The translations under genes were made by a program, and so were the position numbers. Shown here piece by piece: positions 14,203-19,883 of a stretch of DNA of 64,000 nucleotides. The stretch lies in the NCBI RefSeq assembly GCF_014803405.1, contig NZ_JACYFG010000051.1, forward strand, positions 124,001 to 188,000, written 5' to 3'. Positions within the stretch are counted from its first letter, which is position 1. Every line of letters begins with the position of its first letter. The notes beneath the pieces were generated by a model. It saw nothing but the letters and a program-made list of their open reading frames with translations. It ran no database searches and was not told where the DNA came from. The DNA is from Pelagicoccus enzymogenes (GTDB lineage Bacteria; Verrucomicrobiota; Verrucomicrobiia; Opitutales; Opitutaceae).

Positions 14203-15030
14203 TTATCCGATGAGACGAAGAGCGGTCTGGCTCGAGGCGTTTGCCTGAGAGAGCATGGAAGAACCAGCTTGTACCAAGATGTTGGCACGGGCGAGCTGTG
14301 TTGATTCCGTTGCTACGTCGACGTCGATGATACGGCTGTTTGCAGCTTCGAGGTTCTGCTTGTTTGTTGCGAGCATGTCCGAAGCGAAGCTCAGTCGGCT
14401 GGACTGCGCACCGTTGGTTGCACGGAGGGTAGCCACGTTCTCGATGGAGGTCTTGATCTTATCGAGCGTGATACCGGAGGCGCCGAGTGAAGTCGTGCCA
14501 GAGCTCGTTGCGATAAGGTCGGTGTGGATACCGTCTGTGTCGTCGGAGAAGTCCGTTGCTGCGATGGCGACTGTTTGAGATCCGTCTTCGGAAGTCTTAA
14601 CAGTCATGCTGCTGCTGTTCATGAGAGAAACTCCGTTGAACGATTCGGCAGCGACAGCTCCGAGCTGCGCCTTGAGGGCTTCGAACTCAGTGTTGTAGTT
14701 CGCTTTGTCGGTAGTGTTCTTGGTCACGTCTTCGCTCAAGGTCTTGAGCTCGGACATGCGATCGAGGATCTTGCCGGCAGTTGCGAGGGCACCGTCCTGA
14801 GTTTGCAGGAAGGACTGAGCGTTCGCGATGTTGTTGCTAGTTGCTTCGGTCCGCTTGATAGCAGCCGACATCTTCATGGAAACCGCGAGTCCACCAGCGT
14901 CGTCTGATGGGTTTACGATTTTCGAACCGCTAGAGAGACGTGCCAAGCTGTTTTGCAGCATAGCGTTGCTCTTGTTGAGGTTGTTCTTCGCGGCGATAGC
15001 CGAGGTGTTTGTATTGATTACAACTGACAT
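14203..15030 (-). CDS. fliC: Flagellin (minimal, D0/D1 only)
   Basis: A 275-residue flagellin with the conserved N-terminus (MSVVINTNTSAIAAKNNL) and SDDAGGLAVSMKM, and the C-terminal helix ending SMLSQANASSQTALRLIG. The middle is only about 90 residues, so the surface D2/D3 domains are missing. The Ser/Thr-rich middle (SSSMTVKTSEDGSQTV, TSSGTTSLG) offers sites for the pseudaminic acid pathway encoded nearby. It has its own sigma-28 promoter at 15104-15130, a leader with two GGA hairpins and its own terminator. It is clearly paralogous to the flagellin at 15876-16691. Confidence 0.96.
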   Translation of the reverse strand: MSVVINTNTSAIAAKNNLNKSNAMLQNSLARLSSGSKIVNPSDDAGGLAVSMKMSAAIKRTEATSNNIANAQSFLQTQDGALATAGKILDRMSELKTLSEDVTKNTTDKANYNTEFEALKAQLGAVAAESFNGVSLMNSSSMTVKTSEDGSQTVAIAATDFSDDTDGIHTDLIATSSGTTSLGASGITLDKIKTSIENVATLRATNGAQSSRLSFASDMLATNKQNLEAANSRIIDVDVATESTQLARANILVQAGSSMLSQANASSQTALRLIG

Positions 15031-15036
15031 GTTTAT

Positions 15037-15074
15037 ATCATCCTTGATTTGTGCGGCAGCGTCCTTGCTGTCGC
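15037..15074 (-). promoter_or_regulatory. Flagellin leader with two GGA-loop hairpins (CsrA-type sites)
   Basis: On the minus strand the upstream hairpin is GCGACAGC-AAGGAC-GCTGCCGC (15053-15074). The downstream one is ATC-AAGGAT-GAT (15037-15048), which includes the Shine-Dalgarno AAGGA ten bases before ATG. CsrA binds GGA displayed in loops with consensus near ACARGGAUGU; TCAAGGATGA matches 8 of 10. The same arrangement occurs before the other two genes of this cluster. Confidence 0.6.
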
Positions 15075-15103
15075 GTGCCTGAAAGAAAGCGTCAGGCGTC
15101 CGC

Positions 15104-15130
15104 TTTTCTGCCTAGGTGGCTGAAAGTTTA
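15104..15130 (-). promoter_or_regulatory. Sigma-28 promoter of the first flagellin
   Basis: On the minus strand TAAACTTT, 11 bases, then GCAGAAAA. This is 7/8 and 6/8 matches to the TAAAGTTT-N11-GCCGATAA consensus, with exact spacing. The predicted start gives a leader of about 65 bases that contains both hairpins. Confidence 0.75.
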
Positions 15131-15182
15131 GGAAGCGGCTACTCTAGGAAGTAGGCTGTCCTGGAAAGGTGTTGCTCATGTT

Positions 15183-15521
15183 TCATGTTTGGGAGCGACG
15201 GGGATCGCCCGCGCTTTGATGGTTGGTTGGTGTTGGTGAAAATGGTTGGGAGCTTGGCCTCGAAGTCAGGGCCATGGCTGCTCTGGAAGTCGGATGCGCT
15301 CGCGAATGGCTTGGCGAGTGGCCGGGGGTCCGCTTCCTTGGGGGCTCCAGCGTTGCGGTGGAGTTGGCGTGCTGCCCGAGGGCGCTAGCGTTTCGTGGCG
15401 CGATGGGCGGGGCGCGGAAGCTAAGTCGCTGCGCGTCCGTCTCGCTTCGACAGTGGGAGCGGCCGGTAAGGCTGCTGGCTTCGAAGCGACTGGCTTTATC
15501 GTCCTTGATGTTGCTAGTCAT
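15183..15521 (-). CDS. Unrecognised 112-residue basic Ser/Pro/Arg-rich protein between the flagellins
   Basis: ATG 15521 is preceded by GGAGGTGGG (13 bases from GGAGG to ATG) and by a leader of the same design as the flagellin leaders, behind its own sigma-28-like promoter. The protein starts MTSNIKDDKASRFEASSLTG. It has no hydrophobic segment and is rich in Ser, Thr, Pro, Arg and Ala, hence probably disordered. I recognise no family; it does not resemble flagellin, FlaG or FlgM. The composition would also fit a chance open frame or a frameshifted remnant. The upstream signals are the main reason to believe it. A longer frame from 15641 would start before the promoter and is unlikely. Confidence 0.45.
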   Translation of the reverse strand: MTSNIKDDKASRFEASSLTGRSHCRSETDAQRLSFRAPPIAPRNASALGQHANSTATLEPPRKRTPGHSPSHSRAHPTSRAAMALTSRPSSQPFSPTPTNHQSAGDPRRSQT

Positions 15522-15531
15522 GGTTGTTTTC

Positions 15532-15574
15532 CCACCTCCGGGGTGGATTGTTCGGGTAAACACGTCCTTGTGTT
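15532..15574 (-). promoter_or_regulatory. Leader of the small gene with two GGA-loop hairpins
   Basis: On the minus strand AACAC-AAGGAC-GTGTT (15559-15574) is followed by CCACC-CCGGA-GGTGG (15532-15546), which overlaps the Shine-Dalgarno GGAGG. The first contains ACAAGGACGT, a 9/10 match to the CsrA SELEX consensus, and has the same six-base loop as the first hairpin of both flagellin leaders. Confidence 0.6.
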
Positions 15575-15582
15575 GGGTTCGA

Positions 15583-15609
15583 TTATCGTTGGAGGTAGCG
15601 TATCGTTTA
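15583..15609 (-). promoter_or_regulatory. Sigma-28-like promoter of the small gene
   Basis: On the minus strand TAAACGAT, 11 bases, AACGATAA: 5/8 and 6/8 matches to consensus with exact 11-base spacing. The start site would fall just before the first leader hairpin. Confidence 0.55.
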
Positions 15610-15830
15610 GCCTTTTGAGTTGAAATACTCAGTCTGGGCATAGTGCTATTCCGCCAAGCGAACTTGTTCGCAATCGTAGTTGTTCGACAGATACGAAGCT
15701 ATCGTGGCTTCGGACGACTTTTGTCCTGTTGGCTGAGCAAAGGGGGGCTGCGCGGACGGATGTTCGCGGTGCCTTGGCTTGCTTGCCGAGGTGTTGCGTG
15801 TGCTTTGGGCTTTTAGATTCCTCTACGGTT

Positions 15831-15860
15831 TAGGCGCCCCGCCCGTCGGCGGGGAACCTA
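15831..15860 (-). other. Strong hairpin after the second flagellin gene
   Basis: CCCCGCC and GGCGGGG pair around GACG, extended by TAGG/CCTA after a 2x2 bulge, starting 16 bases past the stop. No T tract follows, so it may stabilise the mRNA 3' end or act as a weak terminator. Confidence 0.5.
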
Positions 15861-15875
15861 TGTCGTAGTAGTAAC

Positions 15876-16691
15876 TTAACCTAAAAGTTTGAGCGCAACC
15901 TGGGTGGAGGAGTTAGCTTGCTGGAGCATGCTCGATCCGGCTTGGACCAGAACGTTGTACTTCGCTAGCTGGGTAGACTCCTCGGCGACGTCGACGTCGA
16001 TGATGCGGCTGTTCGCGGCCTCGAGGTTTGCCTTGTTGACCGTAAGCATGTCAGAGGCGAATGTGAGACGGTTTGACGATGCTCCGTTCTCGGCTCTGAG
16101 GGTTGCGACGCTTTCGATGGCGGACTTGATGCTATCGATGGTGATGTTTGCATGGCCGAGGCTGACTCCGCCGTCCAGGAGGTCGGTACCGAGAGTGCCT
16201 TCGAGGTCGTGCTGCTTCACGTTTACGGATCCGTCTCCGGACTCGGTCGTGGCTACCGCGAGGTTTGTGCCAGCGCCTGTGAACAGGCTGACTCCGTTGA
16301 AGGTCTCGTCTGCGAGAGCGGAGAGCTGCTTCTGGAGCTGCTGGAATTCCGTGTTGTAGTTCGCCTTGTCGGCGCTGTTCTTGGTGACGTCTTCGGACAG
16401 TACCTTGAGCTCGGACATACGGTCGAGCACCTTGGATACAGCTCCGAGCGCGCCGTCCTGAGTCTGCAAGAACGACTGGGCGTTTTGGATGTTGGTGTTA
16501 ACTGCTGCCGTACGCTTGATGGTAGCGGAGAGTTTCATGGATACAGCGAGTCCGCCGGCGTCGTCGGAGGGCTGCGTGATGGCAGAGCCGCTCGACAAAC
16601 GGTTTAGGGATCGCTGGAGCATCGCATTGCTGGATGCTAGATTGTTAGACGCAGCTATCGCTGAGCTATTGGTGTTTATTACTACTGACAT
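15876..16691 (-). CDS. fliC: Flagellin (minimal, D0/D1 only), second copy
   Basis: A 271-residue flagellin with N-terminus MSVVINTNSSAIAASNNL, SDDAGGLAVSMKLS and C-terminal SMLQQANSSTQVALKLLG. It parallels the 275-residue copy over its whole length, differing mostly in the short central part (TGAGTNLAVATTESGDGS). It is transcribed from its own sigma-28 promoter at 16787-16813 with an 88-base leader that carries two GGA hairpins. Two flagellins of nearly equal size suggest a filament of mixed or regionally distinct subunits (inference). Confidence 0.96.
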   Translation of the reverse strand: MSVVINTNSSAIAASNNLASSNAMLQRSLNRLSSGSAITQPSDDAGGLAVSMKLSATIKRTAAVNTNIQNAQSFLQTQDGALGAVSKVLDRMSELKVLSEDVTKNSADKANYNTEFQQLQKQLSALADETFNGVSLFTGAGTNLAVATTESGDGSVNVKQHDLEGTLGTDLLDGGVSLGHANITIDSIKSAIESVATLRAENGASSNRLTFASDMLTVNKANLEAANSRIIDVDVAEESTQLAKYNVLVQAGSSMLQQANSSTQVALKLLG

Positions 16692-16692
16692 T

Positions 16693-16735
16693 TTAACTTC
16701 CTTGTTAAGGTTACGACTTGCGACGTCCTTGTCGC
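16693..16735 (-). promoter_or_regulatory. Flagellin leader with two GGA-loop hairpins (CsrA-type sites)
   Basis: On the minus strand GCGAC-AAGGAC-GTCGC (16720-16735) and TTAAC-AAGGAA-GTTAA (16693-16708). The loops sit in ACAAGGACGT and ACAAGGAAGT, each 9/10 to the CsrA consensus ACARGGAUGU. The second loop is the Shine-Dalgarno itself, seven bases before ATG, so a bound repressor would block initiation. Confidence 0.7.
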
Positions 16736-16786
16736 GTTGCGGGGTTAAGGTGTCCGCTGCACCTGTAACTTGCGTTACGCCTCATA

Positions 16787-16813
16787 GTATCGGGAGCTCA
16801 CGCCGGCACTTTA
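16787..16813 (-). promoter_or_regulatory. Sigma-28 promoter of the second flagellin
   Basis: On the minus strand TAAAGTGC, 11 bases, CCCGATAC: 6/8 in each box with exact spacing. Confidence 0.75.
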
Positions 16814-17490: not shown

Positions 17491-18099
17491 ATGGGTCAGG
17501 TTTCGCTCAACGGTGAGATTGTCGAATTTGACGGGCCTGCCCCGCAGACCTGCGGGGAAGCTTGCAAGCTGATCGACGGATTCTTGTCCGGACAGGGCTT
17601 GTCGATCGGGGAGATCAAGGTGGACGGGGCGGCCCTTTCGCTGGAAGAGGCCTTGGATCGGGGCGCTTATCAGACGCTTGCTTTCACATCCGTCAGCCCG
17701 CAGGTGCAGCTTTTGGCGATGTGCCGAACCTGGAAGGACGGGGCGGCCGAGCTGGTCGCGAAAATGGATGAGCTTTCGGTTGCGGTGCTGCGTTGCTCGT
17801 GGTCGGAGAGTCACCAGTCGGTTGTGGCTTTGCTCGACGCGGTTCGTCCAGTGGTCGAGGGGATCGGAGTCTTGCAGCGTTTTGGGGCGGAGTCGGAAGC
17901 GGCGTGGGGAGGCGAAGTGAATGTTTCTTTCGAGCGAGCCTTGGAGGGAATTGATCGCGTCGTGGGTTCCGTGGAAGCCCGGGACTGCGTCGCTCTCTCT
18001 GATGGGCTTGCCGGCGATCTGGCGGCGAGTTGGCGTCAGGTCATTCGTTGTTTAGACGAAGCGGTGATTCCGAGCCTCGAGAAGGAGTTTGCCACATGA
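17491..18099 (+). CDS. Unknown protein translationally coupled to Maf
   Basis: A 202-residue soluble protein starting at ATG 17491, two bases after the MOSC stop with TTAGGA just upstream. The N-terminal part (about residues 1-70) alternates short strands and helices and looks like a small alpha/beta domain. The rest is helical with many acidic residues (SFERALEGIDRVVGSVEA), ending SLEKEFAT. I recognise no family. Its stop overlaps the Maf start (ATGA), so the two are probably made in fixed ratio and may work together. Confidence 0.7.
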   Translation: MGQVSLNGEIVEFDGPAPQTCGEACKLIDGFLSGQGLSIGEIKVDGAALSLEEALDRGAYQTLAFTSVSPQVQLLAMCRTWKDGAAELVAKMDELSVAVLRCSWSESHQSVVALLDAVRPVVEGIGVLQRFGAESEAAWGGEVNVSFERALEGIDRVVGSVEARDCVALSDGLAGDLAASWRQVIRCLDEAVIPSLEKEFAT

Positions 18100-19883
18100 G
18101 CCAGGCCCTGAGTGCGTTTTGCGAGAGATTTCCCTTGCTCGCGAGTCGGGTGAAGGCGGTCCCTGCGAGCGAAGAGCCGGTTGCGGCTTGGAAGGAGTCG
18201 ACGGCCGATGTCGCCGCCGTGCTCGCGCGTTGGTTGAGCGGAAAGAGATTCCCTCATGATTCCGCCATTGCGGTGAGCGGGGTGGGGGACGGTTCGCATC
18301 TGGAGGCTTTGCTGGAACTCTTGCCGGCGGAGGCTTTGGTGTTTTGCGCGGAGGCGGACCCTGAACGATTCAAGTCGTTTTTGGGCATGCCCTCGGCGGA
18401 AGCGCTCTTGAAAGATCCGCGGATGGTGTTCGGCGTGGGCGCCTTGGACGATTCTTTCTTCAACGCTCTCGCGACCGAGAGGGTTGTCGACTTCACGAAC
18501 GCGGAACCCTTGATATTTGCTCCCTTGTTCAATCTGAACGAGTCGTACTACGAGCAGTTCTTCCTGCAGTTCGTGCGGCAGCTCGAAATGTGGCGCAAGC
18601 TCTTCGGGACGAACTTGACCAAGTCAGGGCTTTGGCAGGGGAATTCGTTCCGCAACTTCCACTCGCTGATGCGAGCCCCGGACCCGATCGAGTTTGGAGA
18701 CGCGTTCAAAGGGCTGCCCATGATCATGGCTGGAGCTGGGCCTTCCTTGGACGAGTCCTTGGACTTCTTGCGCTGGGCGCAGGATCGGGCGGTCATCGTG
18801 GCCGGCAACTCGTCCATTAGGGCCTTGGTCAATGCCGGGGTGAGGCCGCACTTTGTTCTGGCGGCAGATCCATACCCCACGACGGACAGCGGTTTCGAGG
18901 GGGTAGACCTGGGCGAAACCGTCTTGCTCTGTTCCTTCATGGTTTACCCAGCGGTGGTGCAGCGCTTTGGCGATCGCATCGCCGCGTGGGCCTACAATAA
19001 TAAGGTGGCGACCTATTTCCGGAGGGTCGCGGGGCGGGATCGTATCGCGCACGTGACGGAGCAGGGAACGATCTCCGCCTGCGCTTTCGATATCGCGATG
19101 ATTCTCGGCTGCTCCAGCCTGTTCTTCGTGGGGCAGGACTTGGCGGCTCGTTTGGACGGGGCGATGCATGCAGCTGATTCGTTCTACACTGACAAGGGCG
19201 CGGCGGATCGGATTGCCTTGGAAAAATGTCGCTGGATGCCGGGCAACACGATCGAGAAGGTGCCGGTAGAGGAAAAGCTTTTCGTATACCTGAAAACGTT
19301 CGAGCAGCTCAGCAGGATTTACGGCAAGGAGTTGCAGATTAAAAACCGCGAAACCCTGCGCATCTACAACTTGTCCCGTCTCGGAGCGCGCATCGAGCAC
19401 ATGCCTTACCGTGACTTCGAGGCGGCGAAAACTTTAATCGAGCCGCTTGGAGTTGGGGGCGTCGCTGCGGGATGGAAGGCCACTCAAGCGAAGCTCGCTG
19501 AAAGCCGAGCCGGTTGGGGTAGAGTCGGAAAGGCCTTGCGGGAATTTCGTGCCTACGTCGAAGAAATCTGTTCCCATTCCTTGAAGCATGCTCTGGCCTT
19601 GGAGCAAGGGGACTTGCCTTTGGAGGTGGCGGAAGCGGAAAAGGCCAAGGTCGACGCTTTCATTGCTTCCAAGCCTGACTTCGAGGAAATTCTTCGAGAC
19701 GGTCAGTTGAAGATGGAGCTGTACGTGCACGCTCGGGCGATTGCCAAGCAATCCCGGGTCGTCGACATGCAATCCGAGAAGTCGCGAGCGGAAAAGGTGA
19801 AAGAGTATTTCTGGGCGGTGGCGGAGGGAAGCTACCAGGTGCTTGCGGCGATCGATGCAGCAAGGCAGGCTCAGAAGGTATAG
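18096..19883 (+). CDS. Motility-associated factor glycosyltransferase (Maf, DUF115/MptE-like)
   Basis: A 595-residue cytoplasmic protein of the Maf family that transfers nonulosonic acids to flagellin. The core motif MIMAGAGPSLDESLDFL near residue 210 begins the DUF115 fold, followed by VIVAGNSSIRALVNAGVRPHFVLAADPY and TEQGTISACAFDIAMILGCSSLFFVGQDLA in pieces, then a helical C-terminal third. The start at ATG 18096 overlaps the previous stop and has AAGGAG upstream. With pseB/C/G/I in this window the donor is probably CMP-pseudaminic acid and the acceptor the two flagellins (inference). Confidence 0.88.
   Translation: MSQALSAFCERFPLLASRVKAVPASEEPVAAWKESTADVAAVLARWLSGKRFPHDSAIAVSGVGDGSHLEALLELLPAEALVFCAEADPERFKSFLGMPSAEALLKDPRMVFGVGALDDSFFNALATERVVDFTNAEPLIFAPLFNLNESYYEQFFLQFVRQLEMWRKLFGTNLTKSGLWQGNSFRNFHSLMRAPDPIEFGDAFKGLPMIMAGAGPSLDESLDFLRWAQDRAVIVAGNSSIRALVNAGVRPHFVLAADPYPTTDSGFEGVDLGETVLLCSFMVYPAVVQRFGDRIAAWAYNNKVATYFRRVAGRDRIAHVTEQGTISACAFDIAMILGCSSLFFVGQDLAARLDGAMHAADSFYTDKGAADRIALEKCRWMPGNTIEKVPVEEKLFVYLKTFEQLSRIYGKELQIKNRETLRIYNLSRLGARIEHMPYRDFEAAKTLIEPLGVGGVAAGWKATQAKLAESRAGWGRVGKALREFRAYVEEICSHSLKHALALEQGDLPLEVAEAEKAKVDAFIASKPDFEEILRDGQLKMELYVHARAIAKQSRVVDMQSEKSRAEKVKEYFWAVAEGSYQVLAAIDAARQAQKV

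Follow-up and report, generated by a model that had tools for sequence, protein, structure and literature searches.

A predicted two-site CsrA switch in pseudoknot-capped flagellin leaders of Pelagicoccus enzymogenes and its relatives

According to the available excerpt of PMC4894983, the flaA leader of Campylobacter jejuni carries two ANGGA stem-loops, the second over the ribosome-binding site, with 21 nucleotides (nt) between the GGAs; the loops are CANGGANG hexaloops, compensatory changes occur, and FliW is the antagonist. The excerpt of PMC7652899 places two CsrA sites in the Bacillus subtilis hag mRNA, gives 10 to 63 nt as the range bridged by a CsrA dimer and has FliW binding the extended C-terminus of CsrA. 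The present study concerns a 64,000-nt stretch of Pelagicoccus enzymogenes DNA (Verrucomicrobiota), below called the window (C50:124001-188000 of a 6.2-Mb genome), with two minus-strand flagellin genes, A and B, and a further GGA-bearing element between them, the middle element.

An earlier note on this DNA had proposed that three neighbouring leaders share a two-hairpin GGA architecture and form a CsrA-type switch on flagellin synthesis. The architecture is present in leaders A and B, each with an upstream hairpin, P2, and a downstream hairpin, P3, whose GGA lies over the Shine-Dalgarno sequence (SD; Table 1), but the middle element is no leader of the flagellin type; the downstream hairpin drawn there is present in this genome without being conserved. 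The AAGGAC loop described as identical in three upstream hairpins was read again in A, B and the middle element; the P2-type loop is thus CAAGGACG at all three window sites, compatible with CANGGANG. One A.C mismatch in P2 of leader B had gone unmentioned. The two GGAs are 27 nt apart in leader A and 21 nt in leader B.

Paired GGA hairpins and a predicted 5' pseudoknot

A total of 181 distinct flagellin leaders was assembled from 77 + 29 loci of relatives and the genome's own loci, and the final 80 nt of each were searched for hairpins; the controls were 268 regions preceding other long open reading frames (ORFs) and 20 rounds of shuffling. All 181 leaders entered these counts. GGA hairpins with a stem of at least 4 pairs occurred in 178/181 flagellin leaders versus 69/268 controls (shuffle mean 39.3), and those with at least 5 pairs in 160/181 versus 32/268 (shuffle mean 11.6). 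Two successive hairpins, with stems of 5 and then 4, were seen in 42/181 leaders, a low number because P3 is short, compared with 10/268 controls and 2 in one shuffle round. Single GGA hairpins with a stem of at least 5 are not rare in the window (51 on the minus and 168 on the plus strand). The hairpins are therefore not obviously beyond chance within one genome, but across genomes they are far above it.

Both GGA sites could be placed by script in 170/181 leaders. They lie 18-22 nt apart in 142 of these 170, with a median of 21, and this median, like the distances in A and B, falls inside the 10-63 nt over which a dimer can bridge according to the excerpt of PMC7652899. The two-site geometry is thus directly observed. 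The base preceding GGA in relatives is mostly C, the loop ACGGA being commoner than AAGGA. Loss of the GGA loops in close relatives that keep the flagellins had been named as evidence that would refute the switch; the loops are kept across relatives.

For covariance analysis, 92 leaders below about 72% identity were considered, of which 73 were taken into a seed (A1) and 19 left out by eye, about ten of them without an evident pseudoknot or hairpin and the rest odd in length or similar to kept rows. Because of this choice, the seed, the model R1 and the alignment A2 lean towards the motif. In A1, so picked, GGA is the sole invariant stretch. R1 describes a 5' helix (P1), P2 and P3 without the pseudoknot. 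It gave 184 matches in 100 loci, of which 181 end at a flagellin start (including L116, missed by the script pattern and read by eye), two are truncated by the locus end, and one lies elsewhere (L031:710, E 0.57). A2 holds the best 150 of the 184 R1 matches (147 distinct). A second model, R2, covers P2 and P3; it was built with leaders L115, L116 and L117 of one genome (G053), whose R2 scores follow by construction.

Covariation directly supports the helices. In A2, pairing reaches 98.9% in P2, whose five pairs all show two-sided changes, bearing out the compensatory stem changes claimed earlier, and 88.6% in P1. A further helix, which had not been supplied to the model and joins the loop of P1 to a downstream strand, is 84.5% paired and shows 175 two-sided changes versus 43.9 in shuffles (0/500 as high), a count that falls to 27-38 when the helix is slid by one column. 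Five or six of its six pairs form in 130/150 rows, through 88 distinct strand pairs. Another scan for H-type pseudoknots gave scores of at least 26 in 61% of the 181 leaders versus 9% of shuffles. The loops are regular (L1 of 1 nt in 141/150, L3 of 6-7 nt in 109/150), as is the gap of 4-5 nt to P2 (148/150). These data point to an H-type pseudoknot directly 5' of the hairpins, overlooked by the earlier note, in which both helices would form simultaneously. An origin of the inverted repeats at the DNA level was set aside, since the crossing helices covary pair by pair.

Leader A matched R1 at 16689-16773 with 33.9 bits and R2 with 41.8 bits, and leader B matched R1 at 15030-15113 with 49.6 bits and R2 with 45.3 bits. 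Leader A lies outside the 150 rows of A2, and the covariation counts behind its pseudoknot are those of the family. Over eight Pelagicoccus genomes, R2 gave 18 matches with E <1e-6, every one of which coincides by coordinates with a flagellin start; the weakest of them scored 33.6 bits and the next match 20.4 bits. Strong matches to the models are thus confined to flagellin starts. Weak R2 matches (about 20 bits or less) were assigned to genes in two cases only, G001:C31:912532 and G007:C6:68622, both of which fall at flagellin starts by coordinates. A search of the whole window against Rfam 15 gave 0 matches at gathering score, and six leader loci searched with E up to 5 gave four matches, to eukaryote or archaeal-type families, none of which rose above chance level or reached its gathering score.

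Other flagellin matches lie in the same genome. The leader of the C34 flagellin (about 430 aa) has both hairpins, GCGGC-AAGGAT-GTCGC and TCAA-CGGA-TTGA, and matches R2 with 33.6 bits, with no match to the full model R1; the putative C21 flagellin lies near a contig end, its match confined to the C-terminal half. The C5 flagellin, beside csrA, lacks the GGA leader element. In seven loci with csrA and a neighbouring flagellin (L001, L149-L154), R2 searched with E up to 1 found no match, and an eighth csrA-linked flagellin locus (L126) has a weak one upstream (12.6 bits). The csrA-adjacent flagellin is thus without a GGA leader in seven loci (L001 1286-1360, L149-L154), whereas other flagellins of those genomes have it. 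There may accordingly be two flagellin classes under different control.

The csrA-fliW pair and the proposed switch

Absence of a CsrA homologue from the genome had been set as a refuting result; csrA is present, side by side with fliW. The csrA gene (C5:380435-380590) matches PF02599 with 82.6 bits, and its product matches a solved CsrA chain (phmmer E 1e-14). The adjacent fliW matches PF02623 with 119 bits, its product matching a solved FliW chain (E 2.4e-14). The gene order is flgL-fliW-csrA-flagellin, flgL being named from its sequence. CsrA has 101 aa, compared with about 55-60 matched in short CsrAs, and its tail is variable between relatives.

Among 57 genomes including the window's own, flagellin was found in 34, csrA in 31 and fliW in 31. 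The two regulatory genes occur in the same 31 genomes, all with flagellin, and lie at most 0.5 kb apart by coordinates, a linkage that is directly observed; the co-occurrence of csrA with flagellin gave a Fisher value of 4.9e-13, kinship ignored. In 145 genomes of the phylum, the R1 motif was found in 10 and csrA in 16, and 10/10 motif genomes have csrA (Fisher 9.7e-12, kinship ignored). This co-occurrence fits a CsrA dedicated to the flagellum.

Support for a switch of the CsrA-FliW type is good in the leaders of A, B and the C34 flagellin, whose GGA hairpins are predicted CsrA sites: csrA and fliW are adjacent, the loop, position and spacing are right, and the sites are kept with compensatory stem changes. 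Put in full, as a two-site switch bridged by CsrA and released by FliW in a pseudoknot-capped leader, this is the reading we consider probable. From its 5' end, the leader would consist of the H-type pseudoknot, usually 4-5 nt, the P2 hairpin, about 21 nt and the P3 GGA over the SD. A CsrA dimer would anchor at P2 and bridge to P3, blocking the ribosome. Once flagellin has been exported, FliW would bind CsrA and free the mRNA, and unexported flagellin would occupy FliW and so restore repression. The pseudoknot would most likely stiffen the 5' end, present P2 and protect the mRNA. Neither refuting condition of the earlier note came about, and its idea of a CsrA-type flagellin switch in this lineage is partly supported; the csrA-adjacent flagellin lacks the element, and the middle element is not such a leader.

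Several observations weigh against the CsrA-FliW switch. When five stretches were folded and compared with shuffles, none was significantly more stable (z -0.33, -0.50, -0.05, -0.68 and -1.15); single-sequence folding gives no support, and the case rests on comparison. P3 is weak: a stem of at least 3 is absent in 24/170 leaders, and in A2 the helix is 77.6% paired, one of its two pairs being broken in 62/147 rows, partly through register shift. Co-occurrence of csrA with the motif would also follow if both were merely flagellar. Matches to csrA are missing in 3/34 flagellin-bearing genomes (G053, G021 and G008). G053, 95% complete, has no csrA or fliW match, yet it carries GGA-hairpin leaders at three flagellins (L115, L116, L117); it also has no flgL above the cut-off, which may mean that its assembly lacks this block. 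Likewise, G021 (81% complete; L122, L185) has no csrA or fliW match, yet it has a flagellin leader of the same type (R2 24.5 bits), and a glycosyltransferase, in place of fliW, comes after its flgL. The third genome, G008, has two partial flagellin matches only, and the single leader seen there is without a clear P2.

Three alternatives to this mechanism were weighed. The pseudoknot may be a sensor, working as a riboswitch-like aptamer or by binding another protein, and may in this way gate CsrA or the ribosome and make the leader a composite switch with two inputs. An elaborate pseudoknot with regular loops, maintained through so many distinct strand pairs, would suit such a role, and the CsrA leaders in the excerpts of PMC4894983 and PMC7652899 come without mention of one. 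We nevertheless regard a sensor as unlikely, given that Rfam yielded nothing at gathering score in the window and chance-level matches only in the six leader loci, that apart from pairing no conserved sequence resembling a ligand pocket was noticed, and that strong R1 matches occur only at flagellin starts. A two-state switch, in which P1 and the pseudoknot helix would be hairpins that exclude each other, has in its favour the minimum-energy fold of leader B, where the pseudoknot helix appears as an ordinary hairpin and P1 is absent (the program cannot draw pseudoknots); both helices covary, however, and the uniform loop lengths fit the classical H-type fold by our judgement of steric limits, making this quite improbable. 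That the hairpins are bound by a factor other than CsrA, or simply mask the SD, would agree with the retention of leaders in G053 and G021, where csrA and fliW were not detected, but is very unlikely in view of the GGA invariant in the 73-row seed (picked by eye), a loop context and spacing that match the CsrA sites in the excerpt of PMC4894983, csrA in all ten motif genomes of the phylum sample, and the position of P2 upstream of the SD, which it leaves unmasked.

The middle element and neighbouring features

When the region between genes A and B was aligned with eight relatives, conserved islands stood out amid unalignable filler. Among six Pelagicoccus genomes, from which the identities given here are taken, the filler is 34-38% identical, compared with 74% for the stretch around the sigma28-like promoter (15584-15625) and 84% for that with the ATG and ATCAAGGACGAT (15490-15521). 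The hairpin CCACC-CCGGA-GGTGG (15546-15532), which the earlier note had drawn over the start, lies in a stretch that is 38% identical, close to the 34-36% of the remaining filler. The two conserved GGA sites of the middle element are 62-65 nt apart in five genomes; in the sixth, the search pattern picked another, upstream GGA site. In the three remaining relatives of the alignment (L091, L092, L094), the middle island has degenerated or is gone. R1 did not find the middle element, and R2 matched only its second site, weakly (10.2 bits, E 0.29).

The frame at the middle ATG stays open over 94-148 codons in all six genomes, and its start is shared, resembling MTS-x-I-K/T-D/E-D. These features would suit a gene for a small protein or the remains of a third flagellin gene, either of which we hold to be doubtful. 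Beyond about 12 codons the frame becomes unalignable, and the reading frame that runs through the 3' island differs between genomes; no Pfam match was obtained, and tblastn of the flagellins against the region gave a best E of 2.2. By comparison with the filler, it is the promoter and the GGA sites that are conserved (74-86% identity). The middle ATG is, on this sequence comparison, not the start of a conserved protein. In our reading, the middle element is instead a sigma28-type RNA that is noncoding and has two CsrA-like sites, or else a long alternative leader of B. Such an RNA may bind CsrA, and a role as decoy is our hypothesis. Its ANGGA motifs number 23 in the six genomes versus 9.1 expected, or about 11 once the two conserved sites of each are subtracted; a sponge of the CsrB/RsmZ kind with many GGA hairpins was rejected, there being no clear ANGGA excess beyond the two sites. 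The C/A-rich string ACCAACACCAACCAACC (15221-15242, minus strand) is kept in several Pelagicoccus genomes although the DNA around it varies, and is possibly a pairing region of the middle RNA.

Sigma28-like promoters were scored as at least 12/16 matches to what we take to be the sigma28 consensus, within 330 nt of the start. They lie upstream of 65/181 flagellin starts versus 2-8 in five shuffle rounds, mostly 94-106 nt away, and that of A ends 95 nt before the ATG. A match upstream of B, TAAACTTT-N11-GCAGAAAA (15104-15130, minus strand), abuts the 5' strand of P1, so that the start site would fall inside the structure; GCAGAAAA is kept in most aligned relatives. For gene B, either this match is no genuine promoter or transcription misses part of P1.

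Loci in three named Pelagicoccus genomes share 86-89% identity with flagellin A, and B is 69% identical to A. Directly after the stop of A lies a perfect hairpin, CCCCGCC-GACG-GGCGGGG, framed by CTACG/CGTAG (15823-15868, minus strand) and 96% identical among the six genomes; a T-run after it is absent, and the hairpin is perhaps an mRNA 3' end or a processing structure. Divergent from the flagellin genes, a 617-aa protein with an MptE-like domain (PF01973) is encoded at 18030-19883 on the plus strand; proteins with this domain are, we assume, flagellin glycosylation (Maf-type) factors.

Table 1. Features of the flagellin locus, with positions in the window unless a locus is named
Feature	Position	Strand	Description
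Flagellin gene A (271 aa)	15876..16691, ATG at 16691	minus	ORF and translation
Flagellin gene B (275 aa)	14203..15030, ATG at 15030	minus	ORF and translation
Predicted GGA hairpin P2, leader A	16720..16735	minus	GCGAC-AAGGAC-GTCGC
Predicted GGA hairpin P3, leader A, over SD	16693..16708	minus	TTAAC-AAGGAA-GTTAA
Predicted pseudoknot, leader A	16739..16764	minus	P1 AGGTG/CACCT (16748-16764); loop GCGG (16754-16757) with CCGC (16739-16742), only 4 pairs
Predicted 5' hairpin P0, leader A	16765..16778	minus	GTAAC-GCAA-GTTAC; within the minimum-energy fold
Sigma28-like promoter, A	16787..16813	minus	TAAAGTGC-N11-CCCGATAC; 12/16 matches to the consensus used
Predicted GGA hairpin P2, leader B	15053..15074	minus	GCGACAGC-AAGGAC-GCTGCCGC; one A.C mismatch
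Predicted GGA hairpin P3, leader B, over SD	15037..15048	minus	ATCA-AGGA-TGAT
Predicted pseudoknot, leader B	15077..15104	minus	P1 AGCG/CGCT (15088-15104); loop GCCTGA (15092-15097) with TCAGGC (15077-15082), six pairs
Sigma28-like promoter, middle element	15584..15609	minus	TAAA-N-ACGATA; pattern in 6/9 aligned intergenic regions
Predicted GGA hairpin, middle element	15559..15574	minus	AACAC-AAGGAC-GTGTT; 86% identity among six genomes
Second conserved GGA site, middle element	15498..15509	minus	ATCAAGGACGAT
3' island, middle element	15194..15242	minus	ACCAACACCAACCAACC and a hairpin-like stretch; 68% identity among six genomes
C34 and C21 flagellins	L006 1950-2300 and L007		flagellin matches in the same genome

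Comparison with known systems

Among the literature matches listed, none describes this leader or a CsrA-FliW flagellin switch in Verrucomicrobiota, and the terms flagell-, Verrucomicrob-, Opitut- and CsrA are absent from the main text of PMC2864571. As for the sites of CsrA type, they represent a known kind in a new occurrence; what is new is the pseudoknot. More tentatively, and with confidence well short of even, we suggest an undescribed class of pseudoknot-capped CsrA leaders in Opitutae and Spartobacteria, with the pseudoknot as a second input, joined in Pelagicoccus by a sigma28-driven decoy RNA that mimics CsrA sites. If the switch is real, it extends CsrA-FliW control of flagellin into Verrucomicrobiota, in keeping with the suggestion in the excerpt of PMC4894983 that CsrA-FliW may have controlled flagella before it took on other roles. 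As a structured RNA linked to flagellin genes and matched by nothing in Rfam, the pseudoknot raises the question of what it contributes to a two-site CsrA leader. A strong anti-correlation between FliW and BarA-UvrY, the driver of the CsrB/C RNAs, is reported in PMC4682653; were the middle RNA to bind CsrA, a system of the FliW type would have an antagonist made of RNA as well.

As a possible noncoding RNA with CsrA-like GGA sites, the middle element resembles the sponge RNAs CsrB and RsmZ; it differs from them in having two conserved sites only, no clear further ANGGA excess and a sigma28-like promoter. The neighbourhood of fliW, csrA and flagellin is presumably shared with Bacillus subtilis, but here the csrA-adjacent flagellin is without the element, flagellins elsewhere carry it, and a predicted pseudoknot is added. 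Two CsrA sites, predicted in these leaders and one of them over the SD, are a feature in common with hag as presented in the excerpt of PMC7652899. The same excerpt offers a further likeness in Escherichia coli glgC, where an upstream high-affinity hairpin tethers a CsrA dimer that bridges to the SD, although that is another gene in another phylum and no pseudoknot is described for it there. The closest likeness is to flaA of Campylobacter jejuni, with two GGA sites, the second over the SD, 21-nt spacing, CANGGANG hexaloops and compensatory changes; in the excerpt of PMC4894983, flaA has a 45-nt leader with two stem-loops and no described pseudoknot, whereas the Pelagicoccus-type leader is about 75-95 nt long and has a predicted pseudoknot 5' of the two sites.

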